Of a stretch of 64,000 bases of DNA, positions 1 to 23,459 are shown one piece after another (positions within the stretch are counted from its first letter, which is position 1; each line of letters opens with the position of its first letter). The DNA is taken from assembly GCA_002049455.2 (NCBI GenBank), contig KV918895.1, positions 1-64,000 of the forward strand, read 5' to 3'. The translations under genes were made by a program, and so were the position numbers. The notes below the pieces were generated by a model. The model ran no database searches. It saw only the letters and a program-made list of their open reading frames with translations, and was not told the origin of the DNA. Source of the stretch: Porphyra umbilicalis. Taxonomy: Eukaryota > Rhodophyta > Bangiophyceae > Bangiales > Bangiaceae.

Positions 1-180
1 ACGCTCCATCATGTGCAAACACCGTAGGTATGAAGTGCAGCCGGATTCGAAGGCCACTCCCGCTTCCCGCCACATCATGGCCCCGATGACCATCGGACAT
101 CGGGTGCCCTCGAACGATCGCTCTTTTTCGCCCGTTTCTCGTTCGGATAGCATCCACCGGACGAATCGACATTCGTCAGC

Positions 181-246
181 GTAAAGGAAACGGAGCATGC
201 AGCATTCACACGAATCGATGTGAAAGCTGACCTGTGAAACCAAGCG
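181..246 (+). repeat. Left terminal inverted repeat of the 19.9-kb element
   Basis: It begins GTAAAGGAAACGG and contains two TGTGAAA words and a TTCACA word forming a sub-terminal palindrome. It pairs with the right end at 20056-20121 and closely resembles the left end of the nested element at 15334, including a CCAATCA box just inside. Confidence 0.8.
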
Positions 247-481
247 GACCAATCAAACCACAGAACGATCGTCGCCAAGACACGGCCCAGCTGGGCCGGC
301 ACGCGTCCTCGAGACCGTGCCCGGCGATCACGCGTCCACCCAGCAGTGGACCGATTCTAGACGGACACCGGATACAGGACGCCAGATACTATCTGCACAG
401 GCCGGACCGACTAACAGGGGCACGCTAAAGACCACAGGAGAGGACAAAATCTATGAGTCAACGCCGACCATGCAAGGTTCC

Positions 482-1031
482 CAAAAATGTCGGGCCGCGG
501 CCTGCGGCCAGATATGCAGCGGTCGGGCCCGCAGGTGGCCACACCCCCGTGTCCGCACCCTCTGGGGCGAGTCGATCTCGGCCGGCCCGCATACGCTCGG
601 AGGGGTCATCCACGCAGCGCTGGGTGGTCCGACAATTGGCTGCGGCCGGGCTGGAGGGTGGCCACACCCCCGTGCACGCACCCTCTGAGTCGGGTCGATC
701 TCGCCTGGCCCGCGCGCGCTCGGGGGGGTCCTACAAGCAGAGTCAGGTGGTCCGACGATTTGCGGCGGCCGGGCCCGCGGGTGGCCACACCCCCGTGCAC
801 GCACCCTCTGGGGCGGGTCGATCTTCGCTGGCCCGCGCGCGTTTGGGGGGGTCCTGCACGCAGGGCTGGGTGGTCCGACAATTTTTCTCGGCCGGGCTCG
901 CGGGTGGCCACACCACCGTGCACGCACCCTCTGGGGCGGGTCGATATCGGCCGGCGCGCACGCGGTCGGTGGGGTGCTCCACGTGGCGCTGGATGGTATG
1001 ACAATTTGTCACGGCCGGGCCCGCCAGTGGT
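482..1031 (+). repeat. Tandem repeat with an exact 123-bp period, about 4.5 copies
   Basis: The word GGTGGCC starts at 534, 657, 780 and 903, and a mutated version at 1026, so the spacing is exactly 123 bp each time. Because 123 is 41 codons, every frame that is open in one unit stays open through all of them, which produces several overlapping Pro/Arg-rich open frames on both strands. I do not consider these genes. The array lies near the left end of the 19.9-kb element, upstream of the transposase region. Confidence 0.85.
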
Positions 1032-1566
1032 CAATTGCCGCTTGCAGTCTGTTTGGTGGTCCTCTAAGTCGTCCTTCAAATTGTGTTTCAATCAGATTGT
1101 CGAACTGTACCATTGCTGTTTTTGTTTTGGAAGCCCCCGGGGTGCCGCACCCACGGCGTCGCTGACGGCACTCACGCCGCCGCCCGCGCCGTCGTCCACC
1201 CAGCCGCCCGCGCCCTCGTCCACCCAGCCGCCCGCGCCGTCGCCCACGCCGCCGCCCGCTTTGCCGCCCGCCGCATCGACGGCGACGCGGTTGGCATCCA
1301 CCGCGGTTCCGGCACTGCCCGTGGTGGCGATGGTCGCCCTCGCTGCTACTCCCCCATCTATTTGACGCTCTCCGTGGTGCTTGCCACCCCCTCGGTGGGA
1401 GGCGCCGCCGGTTTGGCTCGCGCCCCTCGGCACCCGCGCCCGCGGCCGCGGCGCGCACCTGGTCTGCTCCCGTCTGGTGCCGCCTTCGTTGGGGGATGGT
1501 TACCCCTGCGTCATCGGCCTTTGCTTTTGTCCTCCGCCTGTTGTTGCTCCCTGCGGTCGGCTGGGA

Positions 1567-4500
1567 ATGGCTGTGTTGTCGCGGCCTGTGCGGTTCCCGT
1601 ATGGTGGTTCTACGGGGGATGTCCGCGTTGTCGCCGATGAACTGGACTTGCGTCCTGTGGAGCAGCCGCTTTGCGTGCCTGTCCGTGGAGAGGGATCCGG
1701 TGCCCGTGGTCGGTCCTTGGGTGGTGGTTTGAGTGACAGGGTGGCTGTCTCGGCGCGCGTCGCTGGTTTTGTCCGCTCGGAGCCGGCTGTCATACCTCTT
1801 CGTCGAGCTGCCCCCCGTCCGCCTGTCGTGGATGCTGGTGCAGGACGTGCGCTCTCTGTGGACCCGTTTGACGGCAGCGACAATGGAGGCGGCGATCAAG
1901 AAGGGCACCTGGCTGAGCAGCGCAACCGCGTTCCGGTCGCTAAGCGGGCTACCACACTCGAGCAGCAAATGGTGGATGCGCTCATCCCCGGCCTGCGAGC
2001 TGCCATTAGACTGCCGTCCTCCTCCGCCTTCGGCAAGGACGCGGCGCGCGTCACCGCCACTATCATTGGTGACGCGGCGTCGCGGTCACGTGCGTTTGTG
2101 CTCCGGTATGGAGCGCTCCGGGACTCGACCGTTGAGCTCTGGATCTCTTCCCGTGGCGGCCTGCTCTGTTTGTGCTTCGTTGGGACGCAAGACGCGTTGT
2201 CGCTGTCGACATCAAGTCGTAGCATGGACTGCATGCACACGAGGATCTTGATCTGTGTAATGGCTGCTGGTGACGTGCCCGCTGCCGCGCTCCGCGCCCG
2301 CATGGCGCTGCGTGCGGATGCCGCAGACTTTGCGGTGGCTCGCGTCGTCGGCTCCACGCTCACCATGTACGTCGTGTGGCGCAAGGTGTTCTCCGCTGTC
2401 GTGTTTACCACCAAGCAAGCTGCATGCATTGCGCCAGGATGCCGCTCTTTTGCACGCCGCTGTGGTCACGTACGTGTCGCCCGTCAAGCTCGAGAATGCC
2501 TGGAGCCTGAAAAGGGTGGCGTCGGCATGGACATGAACGCCCCGGTGGTTGTAAAGGTCTAGCGGGACAAGTCGTCTCGGCCGCGATGTGTGACCAACGA
2601 GGAGGAGGACATTGGTTTGGAGAAGGTGGCATCCGACACCCAGCAAGGCGATGGGGATGCTGCCGAGGCGGGGATGAGCCATCGGCGCAGGCGTAACCTG
2701 TTGGCGTGCAGCGGAGAGATTGGGGACGGCGAGGCGTGGAACCGGACGGCGGACTGGAAGTCGTCCTTCCATGATATGCTCCGCGTCGGCGACGATGCGG
2801 CCGAGAATGCGGCGGCAATGGGGGTCTTGTACGCCGCGGCGCTACGTCGCGGCTTGGTCCGAGATACGTCGGAGGGGCTCGTTGAGTCGCTTTGCGGGAG
2901 CTCTGCACACCGACGAGGTGACCAAGGGACGACCTTTGAGCCGGCGATCCTGTACACACATCACCCGACTGCTTCCATTTTGAGTGTATGTTCCTCGGTG
3001 TCGATTGGATGGCGCCACACTGCGTGCTACTCATTGCCTTCTCCGCTTTCTCGTTTGCATACTACTTGAGCCCCTTCCGATGCACCGCCTTTCTCGTTGC
3101 ACGTTTGTCTTTGCCTGGTTTCTTCCTCTGCGGGTGATCAGTTTGTGCAGATTCGAGTCGGACGATGGACGTGCCCACAAGAGTCGGGCGGAGTCGCTGT
3201 GGTGTATGACGGTGTCGACGACGGCCTTTTCTCCTTCCGGCATCGGAACAGGATGAAGCAGTGGATTGTGTTCACCCGAGGGCTGGCCGACAAGCTGCTG
3301 TCCTTCGTCGTGTTCGGGCGCAGCACGTACATCGCCGCCACGCGCCACCTGGCGGCGGTTGTGTCGAGCTTTCATCTCCGTAGGCAAGACGTGGTCAAGC
3401 TCGGAACGGCAGGGGCACGGTCATTTACCATCCCACAAGAGACGGCGCGGTGCCCGATCTGCGGGCCCAATCCGAAGTTCATCGTGATCGACGCCCAGGT
3501 GCTTGGGTGCACGGACCCGGACGACACTCACCCCTTCCGTCCCGGGGAGGACTGCCCTGTCTTGCCCATCGACGCCTCGTTGCTGTGCGTCGTCAAGGAG
3601 GCCGCGCTAAGAGGCGCCATTGACAAGGTACTCAGCGGCGCGAAGGAACTGACGGCCAAACAGATCGAGATGCTGAGGTCGTGGGCTCAACCGCGGGCGC
3701 GACGGCGTCTGCCAACTGTCGAGGCGGCTGCCGCCTACGTGTTTTTCAACTTCTTCCCCATTGGCGGCATCGCGCCACCCTCGTCGGTGGGCGATCCAGC
3801 AGCCAAGAAGACGGTTGTCATCAACGACGGAGCGGCTTCCGCCGATGTCAAGGTCGTGGGGCCTCCCACTATTGCTGCACAAGCAGGGGACGCGTCCGAT
3901 GTGAATGCCCCTGGGAAGCGCGTCGGCCTGCAAGCTGCTTTGCGGATGGACGAGAAGGGCAACCTCGTGCTCGGTGGGCCGGGCAAACCGGCGACCGCCC
4001 CGCTGGACACCTGGCGAGACCGTGTTAGTGTTTGCGCTCCCAACTTCAACGTGTAGCCGCGCGATGACGACCGGTCATGGCTCACCGCGGTCCCATTTCT
4101 CAAGGCCGTGCTGTCCGAGTCTGTGACCGGCATGTTCCAGGGTCATGACGAGCGTGCAGTCAAGCTGCTTGCCGACGCGCTCAAAGTCCAAGGCCGCGAT
4201 GCGTGGCGCGAGGTCAATAAGGCCGTCGACGGCGTCGGGTTTGTGGCTAGCTTCCTCGGCTCGTTTTGGGACGAGATTGACGCAGACCCGACCTTCCGTG
4301 TCGCCGTTGGCACGGTCCTGCGGCACGTCGTTGACGTCGAGGAGTGGACGGACGAGGAGTTCAAGAGGGTGGCGGGCTCGGAGGTGGTCAAGGAGCGTGG
4401 GTGGAAGAACGACGAATACTGCGCGCGCTGGGGCGCGACGCCGACGCCGGCCGACTTTGCGGCATGGAGGCGGCAGCAGCCCGCGTACAATGTGGCGGAC

Positions 4501-5646
4501 ATTGACGACCCGCTCATCAGCTACGAGTTTTTTGCGGGGCTGATGCGAGTGCGACCCGCATTGCGGGACTCGGTGGCGGCATTGCGCCGCAGCCAGTACC
4601 ACGGCAATAAGCGGCACGCGGCGGATTTGGAAGGGGTGGGCGACGCGTGCAACAAGGCGTTTTCTGTGACGGCCGGTCTGACGCAAGGGGTGTTTAACGT
4701 GGTGTGTCCCCACGTTGTCACGCTGGGCTTCCGCTGGTTGTTCAAGGCGGAGAGTGTGGGTGAGGCGCCCTCCATCGTCCTTGAGCGGTTTCCTCGCCTG
4801 CCCGAGGTGATATTCTACGACGTGGCCTGTAAGATAGACAAGAATGCGCTGCGACGCGTGCGCACCATCATGCGCGGCCACGGCGTGCGCTGCATCCTTG
4901 ACCGGGCCCACGCCATCACGCACTCGTGCTCCCCCGTCTACATGCCGTACCAGAGCCTGGGCAACACGGCTGGCGTCGCGACTCAAGCCGCGGAGGTCTT
5001 CCACTCTGTCTCTGTGGGCAACCGCACCAGCCTGGCGTACATAACGCCAAAGACCTACATGACCCATCGGATGATCCAGGTGGCCCACACCAACCTCCGC
5101 AAGCTGGCACGTCACCACTCTAAGAACCTGAAGGGCGAGATGGACCACGTGCGCCTCAACTTCTTCTTCCACAGCCGCGTGTCGCGTCGTTGCGAGCGGG
5201 GTGACACGTGCAAGTGCGGGGGGGCTGTTTCGCGCGGCAAGCTGGCGATGGCACGCATGGTGTTGTGGCCCTCGGCTGTCCAAGGCCGCGACGGTCACAG
5301 GTCGCTCGGCGGTGTTCAGCTTGTGGCACACGGCGGTGGAAAAGACGACGTCGGGTCCATCCACTGGGCGGCTGTGGCGATTGGGTTGGAAGGTGACCCT
5401 CCCTTACCGTCGGGCAGTGGTGTGGCGTCGGAGAATGGCTCGGTACCTGGCACGCGCTTGCCGTCGCAGGTGGCATCAACTGCCTCCTCGTCTTCCACCT
5501 CTTGCGACGTATTCTGCCCTGCTGATAACGCGGACGCGGGCCGTCGCAGTGGCGTCATCGTCGATGATAGCTGCTCCGACGAAGCAATGCCCAGTCCTCA
5601 AGCGCTCGCCGAGGCTGCCGTGGAGGTGGATGGGCTGTTCCAGTAG
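1567..5646 (+). pseudogene. KDZ-like (Kyakuja-Dileera-Zisupton) transposase with SWIM-type zinc fingers, broken by nonsense codons
   Basis: One reading frame stays open except for a TAG at 2560, a TGA at 3067 (inside a candidate intron) and a TAG at 4054, and ends with a TAG at 5644. In order it shows a SWIM-like C-x-C...C-x-H cluster (about 2167-2238) and a second Cys/His cluster (CIAPGC...RRCGH, about 2430-2475). Next come a CPICGPNPKF...GCTDPD cluster (about 3450-3520) and the transposase-like core, GVFNVVCPHVVTLGF through FYDVACKIDK to DRAHAITHSC (about 4690-4930). This domain order and the YDxAC and xDRxH blocks match the KDZ/HMGXB3-like group; the family call rests on memory of those motifs. 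The first in-frame ATG is at 1567, but the true start is unknown and a proline-rich stretch continues upstream. The same frame runs on into the Ulp1 domain. Confidence 0.68.
2986..3141 (+). other. Candidate spliceosomal intron in the KDZ-like gene
   Basis: A GTATGT donor at 2986 and an acceptor CAG ending at 3141 (or at 3150), after a pyrimidine-rich stretch around 3110-3130, bound a segment of 156 nt (or 165 nt). Both lengths are multiples of three, so splicing would keep the frame and remove the TGA at 3067. The translation of the segment looks unlike the conserved blocks on either side. This is inference from splice-like signals only. Confidence 0.35.
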
Positions 5647-6462
5647 AAGGCTGGCCTTCTTTTTGGCGACGGCCTGGCGGCTTTGCCTTTATCCCCCGAG
5701 CAAGCGTCTTTCCTGGTGGAGCTGGTTGACGAACGTGCCGGTGATCTTGCAGTGAAGCCGGTGAACAAGGCGGGCATCAACCTAACCGTCGCCGACTACG
5801 ACATCCTCTCTGGCAACCACTGGCTCAACGACGAGATAATGAACTCGTGCGGCGGCATGATGAACGACAGGGACGACAAGCAGCAGCTCCGGCGCGGGGA
5901 GGAAAGGCCGTTGACGAGTGCATCGATGCCAGCGACGCGTACGAGCCGTCCACGACGCACACGCGTCATGAGCACTCATTTTTACGATGTGCTAAACCGC
6001 CCAGTGTGGGGGTACGACTTTCTCGGTGTCTCGAGGTGGGGCTGCAAGGCGGGCATAAACTGGGACAAGGTGGATGCGGTGGTGGTCCCGATCAACGAGC
6101 GGCGGTCGCATTGAATGTTGGTTGTGATGGACGTGGAGGCGCGGAGGTTTGTGTATCGCGACTCTTTTCTGGGGGGGGATAGCTGTGGGGCGGTCTCCAT
6201 TGTGCGGAGATGGGTGCATGACGACGTGGTGCACCAGCTCGGAGCGCCCGCTGCCGAGCGCCTCAACGTTGCCAGTTGGCCGGTGATGGAGGCGGCTGTG
6301 CCTCGGCAGAATGACTCGTGCAGTTGCGGCCTGTTCGCTATGATGGCTGCCAACTCGTTTGCAATGCGTTCTCCGCTTGCCTTTTCACAAGAGGACATGC
6401 CGGCCATTCGGCAGCGCCTTTCTGTTGATCTTTTGTTGGACCGCATTGAGTGGACGATGTAG
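5647..6462 (+). pseudogene. Ulp1-like (C48) cysteine protease domain, continuing the KDZ frame, with a stop after the catalytic His
   Basis: This segment is in the same frame as the KDZ-like protein and separated from it only by the TAG at 5644, so the two were probably one fused protein. The Ulp1/SENP signature is clear: GNHWLNDEIMN near 5810-5845, the catalytic His (codon 6109), Asp in YRDSF (about 6160) and Cys in QNDSCSCGLF (about 6305-6335). In this family the His is normally followed by Trp; here the next codon is TGA (6112-6114), one base from TGG, and the frame continues intact to TAG at 6460. All three catalytic residues survive. In the family the enzyme removes SUMO-like modifiers; such domains are common in large eukaryotic DNA transposons. 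Confidence 0.82.
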
Positions 6463-6660
6463 GAGGCCGTCGTAGCCGCAAGGTCTTTGGCATAAACGTT
6501 ACGCTTGTTTTCTTTTTTAGTGATGACCCACACCCTGAGGCGAGCAGACAGCACCGCGCGAATGTGCCATAGTGCCGAGCAGGTAAACTAAAGAGACAAA
6601 AAGAACAGCGCACGGCGCCGGAAGAACTGATGGCGCTGATGGCGCTGATAGCAAACAGCA

Positions 6661-6759
6661 GCACCAGCCCCCAGAGAGTGACGCGGTTCGACCAACGGCA
6701 GCAGTCAGCAGCACCAGCCCCCAGAGAGTGACTCGGTTCGACCAACGGCAGCAGTCAGC
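6661..6759 (+). repeat. 50-bp tandem duplication, two copies
   Basis: GCACCAGCCCCCAGAGAGTG starts at 6661 and again at 6711, and the copies differ at a single site (ACGCGG versus ACTCGG). It lies just downstream of the Ulp1 stop codon in otherwise anonymous sequence. Confidence 0.8.
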
Positions 6760-8540: not shown

Positions 8541-11500
8541 ATGGCGGCGATGCCTCCCCCGGCCCGGCGTTATGTTGCCCTCGCTACGGGTGTTGGACTG
8601 TGATGCTCGTCGCCGGCTCCACTGGCGGTTCGCGGATGGATGATGGCCGGTGACCCTTATGGTACCCCACATGGTACATTTGCAAGACGAGGTCAAGCTG
8701 CACACATTCGTGTTGGGTGATCTTGGGGCGTTACTTTTGGCATGTTTTGGATTTGATCTTCGCTTTGCTCTAGTGGCTTTTGATTTGGTGAGTGATTCGA
8801 TTTGGTGCGAGGGCGTGGGCGTCGGTGTGGGCGCGAGAGGGGGGAGCACTTGGGCCGGTGGGGACTATTTGAGAGGTGCTCTCGGTTGGGAGAGGCGGGC
8901 GAACCTTAGGACAGCCAACAAAGCACGTTCGCACACACACACACAAGCTCAAGCCACTCAACCACTTCACCGTGGTCCCCCAACCCCTATCCCCACTGCG
9001 TTTCAACAACGGGAGCGCATTGTGTCTTCCACGACGTGGTGGGCGATGATGTGCTCAACATCTTGAGCGAGTACCTTCACCGCCTGCCGTCGCACGACGT
9101 GCTCGTGGCTGGGGTGTTTGTGTCTGATGTGGACGCCATGTGCTGGGTGACCAACCCCCTGTCGCATGAGGTGATTGAGAACTGCTGTGCATCCACGCCG
9201 GCAAGCGGAGCGGACGGCGAACAACTCAGCCGCTGGTATGGAATGGTCAACAAGTTGTCATCCGCAGCCTTCGACGTTGGCAGGGGCGGGATGGGCTGCG
9301 CCTTGTCTGCAGTGGCGACCGCTGGAGCAGAGCTCTCCGTCGTGCGGCGCTTCGCGTCTCTGGCCATGACGGTCGATTGGTTGGCGGCCTCGGAGGCCCG
9401 CGACATCCTGACCGTCATGTCAACAGCTGGTGGTGCTCCGGCGACCGGTACTTTGGACGGCGAGCCGCCGTTGGGTGCGACCTGTGGCCGTGACCGGCCT
9501 GCCACAGTGGAGGCATCGAGGCCGGCTCTGGGGACGCATGGCTGTGCCTCGTTGACGACCGCCACGGATTGCCGTCTGACCTTTGGGCAGGGCGGTCGTG
9601 CCGCACTGCCGCGCGTGGCGCCTGTCGGGCGCGCTGCTTGTGGGGCGCCGGCGTCCGGGCTGCCTCCGTCGGGTGGTCCCGGTGCCGGTGGTGGCGCACG
9701 CGTCCCGTCGGCTGATCCTTCATTGGGGCAAGGTGGCGGTGAAGGTGATTGTGTCGTCAAGGTCAAAGTCGAGCCGGCAGCCAAGGTCGGTTCTAGTGCC
9801 GCCCCGTGGCCGGAGGCGACCGTCAAGGCGGGGACTCCGCGCGTTGGCGACAAGCGCAAACTGGACAACACGGAAGGCCCGCCCGAAGCGCTCAACCCCC
9901 TCCAGTCCTGGTTGGACAAGGCTGAGTCGACCTTCTCGCGGAGCGCCATCCACAAGATGATGGAGGAGACCCGAGTCTACTACGACCGCGTGTTCCTGGA
10001 GCAGGCGCTGAAGAAGCAGTACGCCGTCGCTGGCATCTCCACTGGGCATGTGACCAGGAAGGCGAAGTCCCCACCCGGGTGCGTGCGTGTGAAGGGTGAC
10101 GTCATCACCAAGCGTGTGGCTGGGCCGGTCTCGGTTCAAGTCACTCACAAGACTGGCAAGCTCGTGGCCTCGTGCATCGCCGCCTGCTCATCCACTGCCT
10201 TCGTGAGGCCGGTGCCCGCCTCGACCACTGTTACAACGGCAACGGGCCATGACAGCCCACGCGCCGTATATTTGGGCGACACTCTCAAGTCCCTGGGCTC
10301 GTCGGCTGGGGCCGCTGCTCAGTCGAAACAAGGGCTGGTTGGCGCTGCGCTCGTCCCGGCGCCGCTCAAGCCGATTGGTGATGGTCCTCGCCATCGGCGT
10401 CCGATCGCACTTGGGCGTATGAGCTCTATGGCGGCTGCTGGGACCTGGGATCCCCTCTTCCTCGAGATGTCCGCAAAGCCGTGCAATACGTTTGTGTCTG
10501 GCGGCCCCGGGGTGGGCAAGACGACGTTCCTGCGCCAGCTCCACACGGTGCTACGTGCCAGCGTGACGGGGGAGGGGGCGGTGATCGTGTGTGCTCTAAC
10601 GGGCAGCGCCGCCCACACGGCCGGATGCCAGACTTACCACTCCTTCTTTGGCTTCGGCCACGGCTACAAGCCGGTGTGTGCGGTCGCCGAAGAAGAAGCT
10701 GAGCGCTTGCTGCGGCAGCGCAAGTATGCACCCATCGCACGCCGGCTGGCCCGGGTGGAGGTCCTTCTCCTCGATGAGATTTGGATGGTTTCAGCGGACT
10801 TTTTGGACGTTATGGTGGCTCTGCTGCGCCAGTCACGGTCGCTCTCCGCCGCCGCCTGCGTGCTTTACGTCTTTGGCGACTTCCTGCAGCTGCGACCTCC
10901 CAAAGGCGTCCTCGCCTTCAAGGCGTCCTGCTGGGATCGTTTGTTTCGGGGTAAGGTCTTGAAGCTCACGCGGGTACACCGCCAGAACGAGCCCTCGTTT
11001 ATCGAGGCCATCCATGACGCGCGGTACGGCGTGTGCTCGGACGGGGTGATGGAACTCGTCCAGGCGAGGTCGGTTTCGGTCCTGGACCAAGTCGATGCAT
11101 CTGTTCTTCATGATTTACCTCGGCACAAGGACGTTGCGGCTCACAACCTCAAGTTCCTCAACCAGCTGTGCCCCCGCGACCGGCCGCTCCCTTTTGCTAC
11201 TGTGGACAGCGTCCAGCTCGACCGAGACGTGGACGGTGAGCCGGCTGATCCCGAGGACGCCCAGCGCCGCCTCCTCGCCGTGTCGGGCGCTGCTCTTGCG
11301 GCCGCTTTGGTCGATTGCGTCGCGTCGGTGCTGGTCGAGCATTGCCTGGGCGCCCGCGTGATGAACATCTCGAACGCCAAGGCGGTGCTCGGGCTCTTTC
11401 ATGGCAGTGTCGGTACCGTCACCAAGTACACACGGGACGGCATCCCGGTGGTGCGGTTCCTCGGCGTCAGCGTGCCCAAGGACGTGCGCATGTACCAGTT

Positions 11501-11834
11501 GGGCATCCACGACGCGGGTGACGCCTGGGTAGAGGTCGAGTGCCCGCCGGTGGAGTTTGAGGCCAAGGTGCTTTCCGCCAAGGGCTTTGTTGCGGTGCGC
11601 ACGCAGGTGCCGTTTGTCCTCGGATGGGCAATCACCATCCATCGGTCGCAGGGGTTGACGTTGTCTGAGGCAGCGGTGGACCTGGCCATGTCTTTTGAGG
11701 CGGGGATGGTACTCGCGGCGCTCAGCCGCGTCGACCAGTCGAATCGGCTGTTCATCAAGTCGTTCCAGCCGGCTCGACTCTTTGCGGACGAGGAAGTGGT
11801 GTGCAGGTATCTGCACGACTGGCAGAGGGTGTAG
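8541..11834 (+). CDS. PIF1-like DNA helicase (superfamily 1B), split near its start by a solo LTR
   Basis: Motif I GGPGVGKTT (about 10500), motif II LLLDEIW (about 10770), motif III VFGDFLQLRPP (about 10870-10900), the VHRQ block (about 10975), GWAITIHRSQGLTL (about 11626-11665) and ALSRV (about 11725) give a full PIF1-type helicase core. A long low-complexity N-terminal half (about 9250-10440) holds no domain I know. The frame after the LTR has no ATG at its beginning. If the LTR and one copy of its target duplication are set aside, the frame joins exactly to ATG 8541, so that is taken as the original start, with the insertion in codon 17. Stop TAG at 11832. PIF1 enzymes unwind DNA 5'-3' and occur in Helitrons and other large elements; no Rep/HUH nuclease is seen here. 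Confidence 0.85.
8591..9008 (+). mobile_element. Solo copia LTR (418 bp) inside the helicase gene
   Basis: It starts TGTTGGACTGTGATG and ends CACTGCGTTTCAACA, the same ends as the LTRs at 48545-48962 and 51314-51731, and has the same 418-bp length. The 5-bp target ACGGG flanks it on both sides (8586-8590 and 9009-9013). No internal element sequence remains, so it is a solo LTR left by recombination between two LTRs. The LTR plus one target copy is 423 bp, but stops inside it (TGA at 8601) close the helicase frame. Confidence 0.93.
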
Positions 11835-12027
11835 TGGGCGCGCTGGTAATGTATCGTAGCCTTGATTGTATATTTTACGCAGGGAGTGCATCACTATCGT
11901 GCTGGTCATGGCATCCAACACAACTAGACGCCCCCGCACCTGAGCCCAGACGAGCAGAGTATGAGAAATGACAGACAATGTCACGGGAATGTTTAATGTA
12001 TACACTATGGAGGAAAACAGCGGCTTT

Positions 12028-14262
12028 CTATTTCTGACATCGGTCGGGTGGGCGATGCAACTCGGCGTCAACTGGAGCTGGAGGAAAAAACACAGCAGGA
12101 CGAAGCGACGCGTCCTGCGCGCTCGTTGTGCGGTGTGGTGGAGCTCCAGATCCTTCAGCAGCGTGCTCCCATGGATGCGAAGATGTGGAAGGATAAGGGG
12201 AAAGGGATGGCAGCCGGGGCGATGGCGACGGACAAGGTCCATGACAGGAATCATTGGAGAATGTTCCTGGAGCGGGCACGTGGTTCAAGTGGCGTGAAGG
12301 CGTGGACCATTGGGCGCCCCTGTCGTCAGGCGAAGACATGCGCGCCCGCTTGGCAGGACGCTGGGTGATCTTGGGAGATCCATCCAGCGAGTGGCCCACG
12401 CCATCACCTCCATACACAGAGGCGCCCGATCCGACCACGTTCCCAAAGATACCTGATGGAGCAGGAGGTCCAGACGCCAGTACAGAGGCACTTGCAGCCG
12501 GCGGCGGCCATGGTAGGGACCACCGTGCGTCAGGCGCACCCGATGAGATGAGGCCAGGACCCACAGATGCACCGGGTACAGCCGTCGCGACACCGTTGGT
12601 GAAGAAAACAGGGGGTCGACCAGGCGTCAGCGCCCCGCCGTTAGCATGCGCCTTGCCACCTTTGGGCCCCTGGGAGACCTCGTTGCCATCCGCGATTCGC
12701 GCCAGTCGCCGGGCGCTAAGGCGCGCCGCCCTGTTGTCCTTGGTCTGCTCCAGCCACGTCTCCTTGCGCGCAACCTCGACCGCAGTGTACTGCTCCTCCT
12801 TAGGCATAGCGCCCGCAGAGAAGGAAGCGACTGCATCCGCCTTTGTTGACGCGGCGACCGCACCCGCCTTCGCTGGCGCAGGGACAGATCCATTGCCTCG
12901 TGTAGACGTTGGGCGACCTGAGGGGGCCGCGGCGAGCGGGGCAAGTCCCTTCGAGTGGAAGGCTTGGCAGAAGGCAGCGGCCAGCGGGTTGCTCTTGACA
13001 TGCTCCCCGCGGCCGACGACCACCAGCTCATTCAGAGCGGTGACATAGTCCTCATCCTTGGTGGCCACGAGCATCATTATAGCAATCGCCATGGGCAGCC
13101 GCGGCTTGTCCTTCGGTGCGATCCTCTCCACCACCTCCATTGCCGACAGCGCTTGCTTGTTAAAGTACCGCGAGTTGGGGACGTTCGACTCCTGCAGCAG
13201 CTTGTTGACGGCGGACATGTGCACCTGGTAGCACCACCGGGTTGACTGGACCTCCCGGCCGAAGAAGCGCGTGCCGGAAGTGGTCCCAGCCGGCGGGGCA
13301 GCCAGCGAGCCGCCCGGCGCCTCCCAGATAGCCCACCAATTGGGAAGAATGGGCGACAGCCGGGTCCACGGCGGCCCGTCCCCATTTGCAGTCGATGCCG
13401 ACGTGCGATTGTTGACAAAGAGCACAAGGCTGTCCGTCAAAAGCTGCCGACACACGTCTGTGGCATCGTCGCGGCCGTCGAGGAGGGCCACCAAATCCTT
13501 GGCCACGGTGAGCGCGGAAACCGAGGGCTTGAGCGACGGCTGCCGCTCGAAGACGTTGGAGAGCGCGTATTCGCGGCCGCTGTCCCCGTTGTCACCGGCA
13601 TCATCGGCATCATCGGCACCACGGTCATCTTGGGTGGGCGGATCCGCACCAGCGCCGAAGGTAGCCGCGCCTCGGGCACCGGCATCACCGTCTCCGCCAC
13701 CAGCCTGCAGTAGCGGATCGCCGGGAGGCGTGCCGCCTTTGACGGCAACCGCTGGGCCGCTCGAATTCCCGATGGCGGCGCCCGCGACTGAGTCATCGCG
13801 ATCGCCCACGCCATTCAGGGGAAAAAGAGACCCAGCGTCTACCCGCCCATGACCGTTGGCTGTCCCGCCCGTCGAGCGGTCTACCTCCCGGAGCAGCTGT
13901 GCGTTGGCGAGGCTGATGGCATTCATCTCGAGATGTCGGTACGCGACGGACAGCCCGACGTTGACCATGCGTTGCGCGTGTCGGTTCTCGTCGTGGAAGA
14001 AACCGAGTCGGTCGCGCACCCGTATCCAAAGATGTTCAGGGGCCTCGCGCGGGTTGGGCGAGGAAGACAGTCGGCTGACCGCGGCGTGGACAGCCGAGCA
14101 GTAGCCCTCGAGTTGCGTGTCCAGCTTCATCGCGGCGTCGCGAAAGGTCCGCAGCAGCCCGGCCAAGAACACCCGCTGCTGCAGGTCGGGGATACCCAAG
14201 TCCGCAAAGAACTGCACATAGTCACGATCTTCCGGGGGGACGGTCCGCTTGGTAGCCGCCAT
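12028..14262 (-). CDS. Unrecognised 744-residue protein of the 19.9-kb element
   Basis: The frame is intact from ATG (14260-14262, MAATKRTVPPEDRDY) to TAG (12028-12030). The first 130 residues look helical. An acidic Asp/Gly-rich linker follows, then a compact region containing PNWWAIWE, FFGREVQSTRWCYQVHMSAVNKLL and PRLPMAIAIMMLVATKDEDY. The tail is long and rich in Pro, Ser and Ala, with a basic RPAKRARM nuclear-localisation-like patch. I do not recognise a family. It is convergent with the PIF1 helicase gene (193 bp between stops) and is the only fully intact frame of the element. The N-terminal FHDEN...VAYRHLEMN...ANAQLL pattern faintly resembles proteins at 53609-54499 and 54852-56862, which could mean a shared family; this is weak. 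An upstream in-frame ATG exists at 14328. Confidence 0.6.
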   Translation of the reverse strand: MAATKRTVPPEDRDYVQFFADLGIPDLQQRVFLAGLLRTFRDAAMKLDTQLEGYCSAVHAAVSRLSSSPNPREAPEHLWIRVRDRLGFFHDENRHAQRMVNVGLSVAYRHLEMNAISLANAQLLREVDRSTGGTANGHGRVDAGSLFPLNGVGDRDDSVAGAAIGNSSGPAVAVKGGTPPGDPLLQAGGGDGDAGARGAATFGAGADPPTQDDRGADDADDAGDNGDSGREYALSNVFERQPSLKPSVSALTVAKDLVALLDGRDDATDVCRQLLTDSLVLFVNNRTSASTANGDGPPWTRLSPILPNWWAIWEAPGGSLAAPPAGTTSGTRFFGREVQSTRWCYQVHMSAVNKLLQESNVPNSRYFNKQALSAMEVVERIAPKDKPRLPMAIAIMMLVATKDEDYVTALNELVVVGRGEHVKSNPLAAAFCQAFHSKGLAPLAAAPSGRPTSTRGNGSVPAPAKAGAVAASTKADAVASFSAGAMPKEEQYTAVEVARKETWLEQTKDNRAARLSARRLARIADGNEVSQGPKGGKAHANGGALTPGRPPVFFTNGVATAVPGASVGPGLISSGAPDARWSLPWPPPAASASVLASGPPAPSGIFGNVVGSGASVYGGDGVGHSLDGSPKITQRPAKRARMSSPDDRGAQWSTPSRHLNHVPAPGTFSNDSCHGPCPSPSPRLPSLSPYPSTSSHPWEHAAEGSGAPPHRTTSAQDASLRPAVFFPPAPVDAELHRPPDRCQK

Positions 14263-15333
14263 TGCCCAACCCTGTGTGGCCAGAGTGAAATCCAGAACAG
14301 CAACGATGATCCCAGAAGAGACAAGCACATGAGTAAAAAAAGTATAGCAACAGGTGCGAGGGCGTCAATGTACTGCTCCAGTAATGATATTTGGTGCCGC
14401 ATGAGCATCGGTGCTCGTCGGACACCACACAAAACGAAGCAACGAACCAGCAAAGAAGAACAGCAAGCCATTCATGTGGAAGTGACAGGGGCAACGCGCA
14501 CAGTGGGGACTACGACAGAAAAAGCCAAACGTACCTCAAAAGACCGTCCTCGTCAAAAACGCAATGAAGTTCAGGCAGAGGGAGTTGAGGGCGGCGTCAC
14601 GGCACTGGGTGGGAGAAACCGCACACGGCTCCACAGTAGGAGGTGCGGGACGCCAAAAAGCAGCGCCACGGCGGGGGGTGCGGGACAACGCGCAGCCAGG
14701 GCACGGCGGGGGGCGGTGAGACACCGAAAGGCAACGCCACTGAAAGGGGCGGTCCGCGTGAGGGTGGTCGTGTGGCGTGGTGGATGGTGAGCGGCGGGAG
14801 CAAGACGGGCGGCACCACGAGGGTCGACCGCGACCCGCGCGAGGAGCTGCTCGAGGTGCCTCACTAGGTGTCGAGCGGGGGGGGGGGCGCCTGCGGTACC
14901 GTGCAGGCAGGTGCCGGGTGCGCGCCCCGCATGCGCCGCCCCCCCCCCGCCCGCGCGCGGGACCGGCAGGCGAGATCGATTGGGCCCGCAGAGGGCCCGG
15001 ACGGGTCCCAAAAGGGGGCCGGACGGGCCCCAAAAGGCCGCAGATCGCACCTGTGAAGGGGACCCAATCGGGGCAGAAGGCGGACCTGTCGTTGCGGGTG
15101 GCGGATCTACGGTCCACCAACCTGTCCTTCCTGATGGTCTCGACACCAGCCCCGATATTGGATGTGGACCAGAGTAACATCCCGAGAGAGGCGGAAAATA
15201 TCCGGCTGCTGTCTCGAGATCAGGCCCGTTCGCAGACCACTGTCGCAGGCCGTGCATGCATGCACCCGGCAACGTCATTGGCTGGGGTGTGCATGCCCCG
15301 TGCATGCGCGGCCAACATACGCGGACGGACCGC
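14263..15333. other. No gene seen; GC-rich spacer upstream of the 744-residue gene
   Basis: This contains the presumed 5' region of the minus-strand gene, then GC-rich sequence with G and C runs near 14875-14890 and 14940-14950. Open frames on both strands overlap one another and show only Arg/Pro/Gly bias, so I do not call any. Confidence 0.4.
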
Positions 15334-15814
15334 GTGAAGGAAACGGACGCTGCAGCTTTCACATCATATTCGCGTGAACTTGCTGTGTGAAAGCAAACCG
15401 GCCAATCAGATCACTGCCTGCCGAGCTCGAGCGCTGAGCTGCCGACCTGACCGGCCCGCCTGCACGACCCTTGAGAGGGTGTACAGAACCGGATACGTGC
15501 CAGCCATGAACAGGGCCGCCAGACATCAGCGACGAGGAAAGGCCCGAGCGGGGCCACAGACACCAAAGCCTGTCCTGATCAGTCGTCGTGTCTGGGGCCG
15601 ACAACACATGTCAGCGCCCTGGAGCACCCAAAAAAGGGGCTCCCAGATCGACAGCAAAATGAGATACCGTTGTGTCTGCGGCCCTCAGCAGCCCTGTCTG
15701 GCGAGATACAGGCCTCCAGGACCCCTGGGCGCCCCCACAGTGGCGAGATAGTATCAGCACATGCGGTCAACAAAGCGACCAGGGAACCACCTACGGACTG
15801 GCGCCTGTTTCATT

Positions 15815-16170
15815 GGCCAGGATGACACCTTCGTTTCCGCCACCTGGCCAATCAGCAGGCTGAAATGTCTGTGCGAGCTTTGTGGCCCCTTTGGGGCACC
15901 CCCTGCACGGTACCTCTGGCGGGGGGGGGCGCTGGCGAATCTCGAGGGCCGTGCACGGGGTCGCTGGGGGCCCCTGGTGCGCCGGTAGAAATTTCATGCG
16001 GCCAGGATGCCGCCTTCGTTTTCGCCACCTGGCCAATCAGCAGGCTGAAATGTTTGTGCGCGCTTTGTGGCCCCTTTGGGGCACCCCCTGCACGGTACCT
16101 CTGGCGGGGGTGGGCGCTGGCGAATCTCGGGGGCCGTGCACGGGGTTGCTGGGGGCCCCTGGCGCGCCGG
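15815..16170 (+). repeat. 185-bp tandem duplication
   Basis: GGCCAGGATG begins at 15815 and 16000, and the two copies stay similar through TGCGCCGG and GCGCGCCGG at their ends. Each copy carries a CCAATCA box and a G-rich tract. It is part of the nested element. Confidence 0.8.
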
Positions 16171-16821
16171 GATTACAGTGCTGCCAAGCGTCATCCGCAA
16201 CTGTACGCAAATCAACGGACAGATCCACCGACGAAACAGAAACACGTTCCGCTTGCTGTCGTAAAAATATTTTGATACATCAAATCGGGCTCGACTTTTT
16301 CTTCTCTCAGAGAATACTTGAATCCGTCCACTTCGTTCCAAGATCAGGCGATTCCGAGGTTTCCAAGTGCCGACTGGGTCTGACACGGTGGACGACCTGC
16401 CCCGCGCGTCGCATCAGGCAGCAAGCACCGGAACGCCGCCCGTTTTAGCAACTTATCAAAAATCTGTTAATTCACTCTCATTGCCTTGTTCGGCTGAAAT
16501 TGCAGGACAATCTAAAGTCTGTTCCATGGACGGGGCGCAGTGCCTACTGGAAGATATTTTTAAGCCTCTGGAAGGGCCCTGGACAGGCTCACTGATGTGT
16601 AATATGCTTGTGTGGATCGAAAATGATTCACAAGGGGTCCATATCATTTTTTCGATCACCTGTGTCTGATCCAGATGGGTCAGGGTTACGGGTTTGTGGG
16701 CCAGGGTTTTACCCCTGTGCGTAGGTCAATGCCGGCGATGCAGGCTCCTCAGCAGCCGATTCCAGGCCCTACGGAAGGGCATGCTCCTCATTCCTGTTTG
16801 CTTCCCACCTCTGACCGAGGT

Positions 16822-16897
16822 GGCGTCCTGCTGGCGACTGGTCCTCTTGCTAGCAACTGCAGTGGCTGGCAAGAGGACCAGTCGCCAGCAGGACGCC
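16822..16897. repeat. Perfect 29-bp hairpin with an 18-bp loop
   Basis: Arm 16822-16850 (GGCGTCCTGCTGGCGACTGG...) is the exact reverse complement of 16869-16897. A second, shorter hairpin (TGGAGCCAG with CTGGCTCCA) follows at about 16900-16932. Perfect arms imply recent origin or selection for structure. It lies in the nested non-autonomous element. Confidence 0.88.
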
Positions 16898-18740
16898 ATG
16901 GTGGAGCCAGCTGCTGCTGGCTCCACCAGCCGGCAACAGCCTCGCAGCCGCACTGGTCTGTCACCAGTGGCCACGTTCTTACCCATCCAGCCCCGCTGTC
17001 GGAGCTAACTCAGCAGCTGCCCGACTGACGCTGAATTCGTTTCGGTTGCTGCGCACAGTCCCGTAGCCGGCCCCACCGACCGCTGCCCTGGCCGCACCCG
17101 CAGCCCCAAGCATACAGAAGAACAGAAACAGTACCTTGGCTGTTTACGTAAGAGCGGACCTCCAGCAAACGGCAGCAGACACGCATGGTCAGAAAGACTG
17201 GAAGAGAGAGAAAGCGAAAGTAGGTTCTGGTTACACAGCGATGATGCCCACGAGCCGCACTCCAGTCACCCACGCCTTTTACCCATACCAGCTCATGTCT
17301 CCCCAGTACACAGTGGGGGCGTCGGTGGGCGATTATCGGGGAGCACGTCACTCGGCAATCCACGAACATACTCACTGTCCCCCATCCGAGAGATAGACTG
17401 GTCAAGCAGCCAGCGTGGTGCTGGGCCGTGAGCGGTCACAGGATTCTGGGAGACCCAGCCACGTCGGGATAGTCCCTCGTTGAGGAGCAGTCGGTCACCT
17501 GCGGAATGGTATCTGCTGATGGCTCCCAGTAGAACCCAAACGCCATCTGCCTGGTCACCTGTCGCCTCGGTTTCCACAGTGGGGTCCCACGGTCGACCGC
17601 GATACGCGCATGGCCCCACCAGCAGCAGAGCTGGAAGAGATGGAAAGAGCGCCGCACGCTGAATTGGCCTGCCACCAGTGGCCGAGCTCCCACCCGTCCC
17701 GCCTCCCTGTCGGGGGTGACCCAGAAGCCGCCCGACTGTTGCTGTTTCGTTTATACTGTCTGCGCATAGAATCGGCGTGCGCCCCGGCGGTCGCTGTGCC
17801 GGCCTCACCCAGAGTGGCATGCAAGCTGTCCACCTGCCGCCTGAGCATTGGCGCCTGAAGGGGTACATGTAGCAGCACACTCGGTACACCAGCCCGCTGT
17901 ACTGAAGTGTCTTCGTTGTTTGCGTACGAGCGGACCGCACTCATGCTTCAGTGGACAAGTAGGGTCAGACAGAATGGAGCTGAGAGAGAGCAAAAGAAGG
18001 TATTGACTACGATGTGATCGTGCAGGCGCGCCACTCTCCAGTCACCCACACTGCAGCCACCCACGCCCGCTACCCGCGCTAGCTTGTGCCTCCCCTAGTC
18101 CTCTGCAGCTACATCGGCCAACGAAGAAACAGGGAGGCGGGCGCAGGCGTCGGCCGCGGTCAAGCTGTCCACATATAGAGCAACACCAATACGCTGCCGG
18201 AGGACTGGCTTGTCAGGTTGGGCAAAGCATAGCGGTGCTCCAAGCCGGGTGCACGGGAACCGCACGTACGGGTGCCCGATGCCGGTCCGCCCGAAGGAGA
18301 CGCACGCCTGGTAAAAGCGGCGCCATGGTGGCGGGCGCGACGACGATGGCGTCAACCGCGACGGCATCAGCGTCCACGCGCACATCGTGGCGGCGGATTC
18401 GGTACGGCGGCGGGGGGACCGATCCGTCGGGTCCTGTGTCACCGTGCTGTCCTCGACGACAGTGGGGACCGATTCGCCACCCCGATCCGGAGATCTTTGT
18501 GGTCGGGCCCCAGTTCTGGGTGGCCCCAATCGGTCCTGATTGCTGGCACCGATGTCGAGGATGCGCCCGAAGTTGATGGAATCTCACTGTTGATTTCGTC
18601 AATCGACGAGCGCATCCGGCCCCCCCCGAGGCTCGCGGAGCGCGCGCGGAGCGCGCGCGCCCCCCCCCCCCCCCCCGCGTTTTCACATCGCATATTCACG
18701 CGAATGTCATGTGAAAGCTGCACGGCGCATTTCCTACCTC

Positions 18741-20055
18741 ACGGACCGCGTATGTTCGATGGACCGTGCACGGTGCATTCTGCCTCCCATTCGTTGTGCT
18801 GGGAGCGAAATCCTAGTAGTTTGTTGTGTAGGGCAATAAGTTTTCTATCTTTGGATTGTCGTCACTCCGGAGCGGGGCGTGTGGCAGCGCGACCAGTGGG
18901 GTCGGGACGCAACCGCCAGCACAACAGGATCCGTACCGATCCCCAGACTTGCGCGCGCTCTTGCTCTGCGCGCACGCTGCCCCGCCGGCCTGTACCCGCC
19001 CCCCCCTTTCCCCCATTGCCCCCCATTCACCTCACACCACCCACACGCCCCCGGTTGGATCTGGCTTTTGAGGATGGCATCCCGCGTTACGGTGGAGGAT
19101 CTGCGCTCTCTCCTGAGCAGCCGCGGTCTCCCAACGCGCGGTAATGCATCGCGGCGGCGGCGTTGGTAGCAAACGCCGCCGTCACTGTTTGCCACGCGGG
19201 TGGCAACATGGTGCGGCGCAAATGGGTGGACGACCTGAAGGATGTGGAAGGGACCAGGGTATGTGGCCACGTCTCTCAGCCAGTGCCCATGTGCTGTCGG
19301 CGACGAGGGCACACCATAACATACTTGGTGTTCCAAATTGAAAAATTACTTTCCGCAGCTGCACGCTGCGCATAGTTCTTTCGCAGATTGGTGCATGCAT
19401 GGACGCAGCTGCACAGCTTCTGCGAACGGGCCTCAGAGCATCTCCACAAATGGAGCCAACCGTCCAACCCAACGGCCACGTGTGCACAACGTGTGGTGCT
19501 GTCACTGGCTCTCCAAACGCCGAGCTAAAACTAAGCAGATCACGTCTCAAGCTTGGGCTCGTCTCGACGTCTCTGGCGGTGGGCCTCTTTTGTGGCACGC
19601 CAGTATTCCCACAGATGCACTACAGAGAATCTCCATGACTGCCAGATCGTCTCGCAACTGTCTGCAAGCCACGGGTCACGCTTTCCATTGGCTTTCGTGG
19701 TTCGAACAGGGAACCAGGGGTTGGCCAAACGACTCGGGGCGTCTCCAAACAGGCCTGTTTGGAGTGGCGCTGCCGTTCAAGCTCCAAAAGAAGGGCGATC
19801 CCGCGAGGCCACCACGAGATGCATAAACTGATTAGAAAATGTGAACCGGTCTATTTATGGGCCGTCACAGCCCCGTCACACCCTAATTTTGGAGCGGATC
19901 CCAGCCACCAGTGCTCCAACCGTCCAAACGGCCAAACTGTGCCACGTTTGGCTGTTTGGACGGTTGGAGCCATTGGTGGAGACGCTCTCAGACGGGGCGC
20001 TTCGCGCGAAGCGCGCGGCGTCCCCCCCCCCCCCCCCCCCCCGCGCTGAGCGTGG
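18741..20055. other. Right flank of the 19.9-kb element, no gene recognised
   Basis: Short open frames here show no motif. A pyrimidine- and C-rich stretch at about 19000-19060 and a C run at 20020-20042 are the only visible features. Confidence 0.4.
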
Positions 20056-20121
20056 TGTAGCTTTCACAAGTCAGCTTTCACACATATTCGTGTGAAACCT
20101 GCGAACGGCAATTCCTATCTC
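20056..20121 (-). repeat. Right terminal inverted repeat of the 19.9-kb element
   Basis: It ends ATTCCTATCTC, followed by the duplicated target TTCGTCAGC. Read on the minus strand it shares the GCAGNNTTCACACGAAT block and the TGTGAAAGCTGAC block with the left end at 181. The nested element's right end (18690-18740) has the same TTCCTACCTC finish. Confidence 0.8.
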
Positions 20122-22121
20122 TTCGTCAGCCTTAGCGTTCGGCAGTCGTCCGGTGAGACGCGCGGCCGAACGAAAGGCCTTTCGTCCGGACAAACGTTGG
20201 CACCCAAAACACAGCTCGGCATCCTCCTGACAGTACTTCTTCCGGTGCTACAATTTCTCAATTGATGATGACGACTAAGACTGGTAAGCTAAGGACACCG
20301 GTCCTCTGCCTGTCCACCTTCCCCCTCCCCGCCGTCCCCCTCCCCGCCGTCCCCCTCCCCGCCGTCCCCCTCCCCGCCGTCCCCCTCCCCGCCGTCCCCC
20401 TTTCCGCCGTCCCCCTCCCCGCCGTCCCCCTCCCCGCCGTCCCCCTCCCCGCCGTCCCCTTTCCCCGTCGTCCCCCTCCCGGCCGTCCCCCTCCCCGCCG
20501 TTTCCCACCCCACCTTGCTCCTCCCTCCCCACGCCTCACCTCTCCACTCTTTTCTGCACCTGCCCCTTCTTGCTCACGTCCAGACCTAGTCCCTTCCGGC
20601 CTCCCGTCCCTCGCCCACCGCTGCCCCCCCCCCCACCGACGCCGCTGTCCTCCTCCACGTTCACCGCTGTCGACGTCCGCTCCCCCGCGTCGTTAAACTG
20701 GCGCCTCCACAGTAGCCTGCATCTCTTGTCCGCTGCTGCCGCCCCAGATGCAGGAAGGCTCTTTCGGCAGCATGGCAACCAGAGTGCGTGAGTGTCGACC
20801 AGGGGAAGATGGCGGACATGGAAGAGTCAGCCAAGGCAAGGACTGCCCTGTCAGTAAGATGTGTCGGTTGCTCTCGTAGAGCTCGCCCCTCTCCTGCAGC
20901 TTCCACTCCAGACCGGCACACCTCTCCTTGCCCCGGCAAGACCGTACGACAGGCACGGTTGGGTGCCCATGTTTGAGAAATCAAACACCTAACGTCTTCA
21001 TCAATACAATAGTTTGTCTGCGGTCGATTGCAGGACGCTCTCATGATGCTCCAGGAGCGCCTTCTCATTCGGACTTGGGGTTGCACCAGCACTCGAGGCT
21101 TGACTTGTCTCATACACTTGGTACAGTCTCTCTCCATTCTTGTCGCTTCCGTTCTTGTCCAGGGGGGGATAGCAACGAACGCGGTCGACCGGCCTCTACG
21201 GTACAATCAACTGCGATCGTGGCTCCCGATCATCGTCTTCTGCACGAAATATATGGGCTACTTTCTAGTCGTACGATCGCCATAGAGGGTGGACAGCATT
21301 GGAGAAAGACTGTATCCTTGCCGCCAGAGGGACTCTGATTGGCCATGTTTGTTTTTGTCAAGATCTGGGACTGTCATGAAAATCGACTGCGAGCCGGGCT
21401 GGCTGTGTGTATGCCTCTCACAGAGGCCTGGACACGCACCTCTCTGACAGGTCACTGTGGGCGGATTGTCATTCCAGGCACGTACGTGCAATACCCTGGC
21501 CTTCAGGGCGGTGGCGCGCTCGGCGACGCAGAGATACCGGGAAAGCCGGCCGGCTCCATGGCGGCGAGCACGCACGGGGGCACGTGCAGCCACGTTGCCG
21601 TGGCGGGGGGGGCGTGGGGCGGGGAAAGGGGTGCCGCCGCCGCCGCCGCGGCGGCGGCGGCCCGCCGGCGTCGTGCAACGCCTACGGGCGGGGCCGTCAC
21701 CCCGCCGCGCAGCGCACCTGCGCGCGGCCGACAAGGCGCACGGGCGGGCGGATGGGATCGACCTCCGCGCCACGGGGCGCCTCTAACCGTGCCGTGAGAT
21801 GGCGTTTGAAACCGCCGACGTGCCGCCGCAACAGAAGCCGGCGCGTAGGCACGATCACCCGCGGGTCATCGCGGGCGCGTCGAACCCCGGAAGTCGCTGC
21901 ACGCGGTCGCCGCGCGCAACTCGGGGCGGTGGGGGGGGGCAGGGGGACAGGCGCCGTCTGGGCCCTGTGACCCTTGTGGCAGGACAGTCCTTCTCAGCCG
22001 CGTAACTCTATTCGCTTTTAGCGTCATCGCGACCCTTCCAATGCTGACACGCCCTCAGATCCCTGAGGACACGAATGCAGACTGCCGCCTCTGAAACGGA
22101 GATCAAGTCCCGTTATCTAAG
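20122..22121. other. Sequence between the two large elements; no convincing gene
   Basis: It holds a 15-bp minisatellite, GC-rich simple stretches (about 21600-21700) and palindromic words such as AAAGGCCTTT near 20177. The plus-strand frame at 20262-20696 starts with three ATGs but is built mainly on the minisatellite, so it is not called as a gene. Confidence 0.35.
20320..20505 (+). repeat. 15-bp minisatellite, about 12 units
   Basis: The unit CCGTCCCCCTCCCCG repeats with an exact 15-bp period, degenerating at the right end. In one frame it reads as repeated Pro-Leu-Pro-Ala-Val. Confidence 0.9.
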
Positions 22122-22174
22122 TATATGTGTGCATCACTACACTTTGAGAGCACCCTGTCCTAAAGGCCAGGGAA
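22122..22174 (+). repeat. Left arm of a 53-bp inverted repeat flanking the DDX11-like gene
   Basis: This block (TATATGTGTGCATCACTACA... to ...AAAGGCCAGGGAA) recurs in reverse complement at 26608-26660 with one mismatch. Its outer end is a TA dinucleotide on both sides, which would suit a TA-targeting element, but no longer target duplication is visible. Confidence 0.85.

Positions 22175-23428: not shown

Positions 23429-23459
<31 letters not shown>

Follow-up and report, generated by a model that had tools for sequence, protein, structure and literature searches.

A giant KDZ-like transposon of Porphyra umbilicalis with a PIF1-like helicase gene and an orphan gene in a conserved array

Why some eukaryotic DNA transposons reach 15-30 kb, and what role their extra genes have, is an open problem. 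The question is raised by a locus in the stretch of DNA analyzed here, positions 1 to 64,000 of contig KV918895.1 of the red alga Porphyra umbilicalis (GCA_002049455.2). This whole stretch of 64,000 nt is referred to as the window (C135:1-64000), and the genome searched (G000) comprises 83.8 Mb in 665 contigs. Ten of the 11 phycobilisome-family matches in this genome fall on C665, a contig that appears to be a plastid, as would be expected of a red alga. In the initial annotation, the interval 172..20130 was described as one 20-kb DNA transposon with a KDZ transposase, an Ulp1 protease, a PIF1 helicase and an orphan protein of 744 residues. Here, the unit is confirmed to be real, and its outer element is a transposon with inverted ends, a target-site duplication and empty sites. 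The own sequence of this element amounts to ∼15.2 kb and ∼4.8 kb near the right end are later insertions; since 15220-19990 consists of nested insertions, the interval is not one element throughout. The element is very probably a giant KDZ-like cut-and-paste transposon, assigned to the Zisupton/Dileera type on account of its inverted ends and of duplications of 8 bp, in which the helicase and the orphan are kept as transposition helpers and which was later hit by other transposons.

Ends and target site of the outer element

The left terminal inverted repeat (CGTAAAGGAAACGG..., 180..250, forward strand) and the right terminal inverted repeat (GAGATAGGAATTGCCG... when read on the reverse strand, 20051..20121) were located by an inverted-repeat search, by local alignment and by comparison with the ends of other copies. 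The segments 199-239 and 20062-20102 are 85% complementary over 41 nt. When the 70-nt ends were aligned locally, a score of 29 was obtained, which was reached by none of 5000 shuffles (maximum 16). As a control, genuine 70-nt pieces of the region were paired at random 2000 times; the scores had a 99th percentile of 13 and a maximum of 32, and this maximum may be explained by genuine inverted repeats of the region. The inverted-repeat ends that had been placed at 181 and 20121 could thus be recovered, but the element starts at 180, because other copies show that the ninth base of the proposed nine-base duplication is the element's own terminal C, matched by chance in the right flank. The duplication therefore shrinks to 8 bp (TTCGTCAG). 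Its left copy lies at 172..179, as other copies place the first base of the element at 180, and its right copy at 20122..20129, as determined by flank comparison and empty sites. In the other gene-bearing copies the terminal consensus reads (C/T)(G/A)T(G/A)AAG... and GAG(A/T)TAGGAA..., again with 8-bp duplications.

An empty site had been proposed as a check. The flanks of the window element were joined with one copy of the duplication and searched against the genome, where 40 of 78 candidates were scored. At least 41 matches were obtained, of which 39 cross the joint unbroken at 83-94% identity and two are the window's own flanks. Two of the joint-crossing matches adjoin on C6, which leaves ∼38 places at least. 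These unbroken matches indicate that the outer element interrupts a single copy of a dispersed repeat and that the other listed copies are empty sites. The insertion target itself (window 93-179 and 20130-20290) is a dispersed repeat with at least ∼38 other copies that are 83-94% identical.

Inside the left end, a tandem array with 4.1 copies of a 123-bp unit was found with TRF at 515..1024 on the forward strand. Arrays of 123-187-bp units, ∼0.3-0.5 kb inside the left end, are present in the window, C162, C99, C145, C34, C129 and C356, in all of which the left end is known. A tandem array was also read in C164, the left end of which lies outside the piece; the one read at C223 may belong to a neighbor rather than to the copy, and none was seen in the pieces read of C541, C136 and C56. 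The left subterminal array is a possible candidate for a transposase-binding region.

The gene set and its conservation across copies

The transposase gene, with a KDZ core and a C-terminal Ulp1 protease, could be traced at 1552..6450 on the forward strand through a tblastn alignment to the C541 copy (46% identity in 1701 columns). It is a pseudogene with in-frame stops at 2560, 4054, 5644 and 6112, and another at 3067 inside a presumed intron. The KDZ assignment made before agrees with a Pfam match (PF18758) at 4681..4929 on the same strand (E 1.2e-5, 25.6 bits, just under the curated cut-off of 26.6); the stops are a correction to the initial annotation. PF18758 is listed for 6 of 78 transposase relatives in the database's precomputed annotation. 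The Ulp1-like (Peptidase_C48) domain at 5776..6450, forward strand, is decayed; no Pfam match to it was obtained in the window's own frames, but it could be delimited by alignment to the C541 domain, which is recognized by PF02902. In two other copies the Ulp1 domain is clear (PF02902, E 2.5e-23 and, in C162, 3.9e-26). The longest transposase in one frame has 1565 residues (P0064) and combines a KDZ core with a C-terminal Ulp1 domain (PF02902, E 9.1e-23). A CxC...CxH pattern that resembles a SWIM zinc finger was seen by eye in the N-terminal part of the transposase, and Pfam gave none. Without help the window copy can probably not move, although its ends could be used in trans by a transposase from other copies.

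The PIF1-like helicase predicted for this locus was confirmed. Its frame of 974 codons is open (8910..11834, forward strand) and encodes a superfamily 1B (SF1B) helicase, as identified by Pfam (PF05970, E 5.4e-11), by matches in the PDB and by a motif search. All five helicase motifs searched for are kept in the PIF1 of the window: Walker A (GGPGVGKT), Walker B (LLLDE), GDFLQL, TIHRSQGLT and ALSR. In the PDB, the helicase matched best to chains with the name PIF1 (6hph, which we take to be human PIF1; E 2e-29), and the Helitron Helraiser matched far more weakly (9e-6).

Downstream, on the reverse strand, lies the orphan gene (12028..14262), an open reading frame from ATG for 744 aa that is also supported by alignments. 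As annotated initially, the frame is open. The protein has no family match in Pfam, NCBIfam or the PDB; a profile of 21 orphan sequences gave no PDB match either. With the single sequence as query, 7991 candidates from a 5.8-billion database were scored and 10 proteins were recovered, none of which is functionally named for the orphan part, and the 21-sequence profile found 8 proteins, none of them new, among 7990 scored candidates. An apparently chimeric gene model (P0003; amino-oxidase and orphan) was excluded from the orphan alignments. In these alignments an N-terminal block is conserved, with HxAxSR, PxHxW, GFF and D among its invariant positions. The middle is conserved as well and contains tryptophans; there is also a basic stretch, and some members of the family have a KRAR-like motif near the C-terminus. 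An AlphaFold2 model (10 sequences) reached a mean predicted local distance difference test score (pLDDT) of 37.5 and a predicted template modeling score (pTM) of 0.20, too poor for a fold search; a basic helix is predicted in this low-confidence model.

To place the genes in the genome, rows that had been entered as further pieces of already listed copies were dropped, namely 17 of 61 PIF1 rows and 30 of 84 orphan rows, which left 44 PIF1 places and 54 orphan places. In the array count the KDZ rows are matches and not copies; 3 of the 82 KDZ rows were dropped in the neighbor listing of the PIF1 places and none in the array count. The array, in which KDZ-Ulp1 is followed by PIF1 on the same strand and by the orphan downstream on the opposite strand, was found at 34 of the 44 PIF1 places. 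In copies with this array the orphan is ∼31-61% and PIF1 ∼42-68% identical to the window proteins, and the frames are mostly open. At a KDZ identity of at least 44%, PIF1 lies within 20 kb of 40 of the 44 matches and the orphan within 25 kb of 40 of the 44, and at 36-43% these numbers are 6 and 4 of 11, respectively. A random point in the genome has 0.04 KDZ matches within 20 kb.

At the PIF1 places without the array, different arrangements were observed. One (C442) lies at a contig end. At C24, C342 and C172 the orphan has its usual position and KDZ is located upstream, but in opposite orientation, and at C230 KDZ is downstream on the opposite strand and the orphan is absent from the matches. 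KDZ is present and no orphan match was found at C450 and C10, the orphan is present and no KDZ match was found at C42:100721, and neither was matched at C36:170967 and C145:121611. C24, C172 and C342 represent a lineage that has diverged further (38-43% in KDZ); there, the order of PIF1 and orphan is kept and the transposase gene is on the opposite strand.

The search for other copies with such ends, also proposed with the initial annotation, gave a positive result. Twelve gene-bearing copies were examined, namely the window, C541 and ten copies with fetched end regions. The end pair with the best-matching flanks was chosen by a script among motif candidates; the right-end motif occurs once per fetched piece. 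The right terminus was located in all 12 copies. Both ends with the 8-bp duplication, around the same gene set, were identified in 10 of the 12, window included (nine at 8 of 8 positions and C99 at 7 of 8); in C223 and C164 the left ends lie outside the fetched pieces, so the duplication is unchecked in these two. The nine such copies besides the window are 14.4-16.5 kb long. Among them, C541 (1063-16513) is a divergent copy in which the whole gene set is open apart from one stop in the presumed intron of the transposase. Genes with different boundaries, the case named as refuting a single unit, were not seen where the ends could be read, but ends without the genes do exist, in the 3.4-kb family described below.

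A distant KDZ group (C28, C419, C187, C222 and others, 27 matches) was also found, with 28-32% identity and frames that stay open for as many as 1665 codons. Some of its copies have near-identical scores, and the group is possibly recently active. In the 10 kb downstream of the C28 copy (30% identity in KDZ), the best PIF1 or orphan match had an E value of 0.24, which is chance level.

Nested insertions and the 3.4-kb family

The insertions near the right end were resolved into layers. The second layer (15220..19437) is another dispersed repeat, consisting of 15220-15332 and 18741-19437, which is split by a 3.4-kb element; it was delimited by a joined-flank search, and its right limit comes from one copy (C17). 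The joined flanks of the 3.4-kb element gave 17 matches, 12 of them over the joint, two being the window's own and three partial. Copies of this dispersed repeat are up to 99% identical. The nested 3.4-kb element itself (15333..18740, forward strand) was identified by inverted repeats and genome searches. It is non-autonomous, belongs to the same transposon group, has its own terminal repeats and is flanked by an 8-bp duplication (ACGGACCG) at 15325..15332 and 18741..18748, as seen in the flank comparison. KDZ, PIF1 and orphan matches were not found in it. Further to the right, at 19433..19990, lies a 558-bp repeat resembling a miniature inverted-repeat transposable element, with 36-bp inverted ends, for which inverted repeats and a genome search revealed at least 41 other near-full-length copies with 96-99% identity.

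The 3.4-kb element belongs to a young non-autonomous family. Its whole first 1.47 kb was matched at 96-98% in six other places, and others were matched in pieces, with 81-86% in the longer pieces of C42. The terminal pattern occurs at 44 sites in the genome, versus one site for the reversed pattern. From these sites 14 pairs of like ends were paired by eye, which together with the nested one makes 15; outside these pairs are the outer left end of the window and 13 more of the 44 sites, and those of C145 and C162 served among the gene-bearing copies. An 8-bp duplication flanks all 15 pairs, at 8 of 8 positions in 11 and at 7 of 8 in four. Taken together with the gene-bearing copies, 25 end pairs carry the duplication, 20 at 8 of 8 and five at 7 of 8. 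Members of the family were found in C5, C15, C25, C32, C89, C90, C223, C407 and C420, mostly with 3.4-4.2 kb between like ends (6.1 kb in C420).

The same ends enclose C42:264149-283674, with KDZ, PIF1 and orphan matches inside, those of PIF1 and the orphan with stops. This copy is likely a relative of the autonomous parent of the family. A 15.3-kb spacing of like ends at C341 was considered as a full element and rejected. Of this spacing, 10 kb were read; one portion belongs to the 3.4-kb family (99% over 1676 bp), and at E 1e-3 neither KDZ nor PIF1 nor the orphan was matched, so it was taken for a split copy. Outside the element, the G+C content at window positions 22001-26000 is 78-82%, much higher than in most of the window.

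Probable helper genes of a giant KDZ-like transposon

The same gene order and strands in copies that differ at about half of their residues, inside one end pair where this could be read, argue for helpers rather than passengers. The helicase and the orphan look to be under purifying selection: ratios of nonsynonymous to synonymous substitutions (dN/dS, NG86) were 0.40 for PIF1 in one pair and 0.25-0.31 for the orphan in five pairs, all below 1 but rough, as dS of 1.0-2.3 is near or beyond saturation and a second method failed in four of the six pairs. Besides this saturation, several observations weigh against helpers in a KDZ-like element. The duplications have the ordinary length of 8 bp, and this product betrays no helicase step. 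In all six proteins scanned, PF18758 was significant but stayed below its curated cut-off (E 1.2e-5 to 5.8e-4; 20.1-25.6 bits versus 26.6). Ten of the 44 PIF1 places lie outside the array and 11 of the 54 orphan places have neither neighbor. Of the 27 KDZ matches with less than 36% identity, none has PIF1 and none the orphan nearby, a class that may hide diverged genes as lower identity also lowers detection; because of these matches, the helpers are not required by KDZ elements in general, unless they have diverged beyond detection.

This last class also counts in favor of passengers, in which case the helicase and the orphan would have been captured from the host or from other elements and be of no help in moving. 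Many giant transposon families of Ectocarpus, with KDZ among the giant superfamilies, carry accessory genes mostly of unknown function (PMC12477816; this and all other sources are cited for the sections consulted). However, passengers would be lost or swapped, while here order and strands are the same in 34 places despite the divergence of the copies, the frames are mostly open and dN/dS is 0.25-0.40 in the computed pairs, which makes passengers unlikely. Much less probable still is that two adjoining elements are involved, a KDZ transposon and a Helitron-like or other element that supplied PIF1 and the orphan. Helicases are typical of Helitrons (PMC12730594), the region does contain nested elements at 15220-19990, KDZ was not matched within 20 kb of three of the 44 PIF1 places, and the 11 lone orphan places would fit as well. 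Against this, no Rep/HUH (Helitron_like_N) match was obtained in the seven window frames scanned, the helicase is nearer to PIF1 chains than to Helraiser, and the gene set lies between one end pair in 10 copies. A provirus or virus-derived element, Polinton-like or derived from a giant virus, with the KDZ transposase as integrase, is the most improbable of these origins. Its large size, helicase and protease-like (Ulp1/C48) domain recall such elements, but the Ulp1 domain is fused to the transposase, no polymerase, capsid or packaging gene was found among the ten window frames that were scanned, a part of all frames, and no relatives of the orphan or transposase were confirmed in viral contigs by pattern-based, insensitive scans, which may not cover records close to this genome.

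For the helpers of a KDZ-like transposon, we infer the biochemical steps as follows. The KDZ-Ulp1 transposase would bind the ends, probably aided by the left subterminal tandem array, excise the element and join it to staggered target DNA, which would give rise to the 8-bp duplications. The PIF1-like helicase most likely would unwind DNA at the cut ends or strip obstacles during excision, gap repair or element replication, and the orphan, probably helical, partly basic and nuclear, most likely would bind DNA or bridge transposase and helicase. Ulp1 would probably strip SUMO from the transposase or from host silencing proteins. More tentatively, and on balance doubtful, one KDZ clade might have evolved a three-protein machine of KDZ-Ulp1 transposase, dedicated PIF1 helicase and dedicated partner, so that transposition of ∼15 kb would be helicase-dependent and perhaps coupled to replication or donor-gap repair. 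If true, such a machine would be the DDE-type equivalent, in eukaryotes, of bacterial transposons that work with several proteins. One extra gene is enzymatically clear and is kept with a novel partner in most places of one genome, which makes a helper role testable. Natural tests are provided in the same genome by the gene-free 3.4-kb relatives with matching ends, the divergent open-frame copies and the KDZ lineages for which neither gene of the pair was observed.

With Zisupton and Dileera the element shares inverted ends, 8-bp duplications and a transposase of more than 1000 residues, and its core is matched by PF18758 with a score just under the cut-off. It differs by this score and by a separate PIF1-like helicase gene and the orphan in a fixed array. 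A C-terminal Ulp1 domain presumably also occurs in Zisupton-type transposases. Zisupton and a Dileera family have 8-bp duplications, whereas two Laccaria Kyakuja families have 7-bp duplications without inverted ends, unlike the element here (PMC12730594). Zisupton was reported in fish, fungi, algae and nematodes (PMC9297572, PMC8226300), KDZ transposases reach 1400 residues in Pristionchus (PMC9297572), and KDZ1 of Cryptococcus is 11 kb long with 8-bp duplications (PMC12810828). The novelty suggested by the initial annotation was overstated in that giant KDZ elements with accessory genes have been published: those of Ectocarpus reach 30.3 kb and are among giant families with nested insertions, often a pseudogenized transposase and presumed mobilization in trans (PMC12477816), and movement of a KDZ element of 31.7 kb is reported for Chlamydomonas (cited in PMC12477816). 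The element here shares their giant size and, with the giant families of Ectocarpus, also the accessory genes, nested insertions and broken transposase; in the consulted sections on Ectocarpus, however, the accessory genes are mostly of unknown function and no helicase gene is named (PMC12477816).

Helicase genes are found in other eukaryotic transposons. AcademH is a helicase-encoding DNA transposon lineage of the Academ superfamily (PMC10045372). It differs in this superfamily and in its 9- or 10-bp duplications, as compared to 8 bp here. The helicase of AcademH is of another superfamily than PIF1-like helicases. A helicase is also shared with Helitron RepHel (PMC12730594, PMC6431247). In contrast to Helitrons, which have HUH/Rep, the element here gave no Rep match in the scanned frames, and its inverted ends are flanked by duplications of 8 bp. 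The Helitron helicase is PIF1-like, and Helitrons are not known to have inverted ends or duplications. A KDZ element with a PIF1 helicase was not found in the literature searched, with Repbase entries and supplements outside the search, and the words KDZ, Zisupton and PIF1 were absent by term search from the consulted text of a review of giant transposons (PMC6431247). Giant KDZ elements with accessory genes and helicases in Academ transposons are known, and the new part, provisionally, is the helicase and the orphan as a conserved set in a KDZ element.

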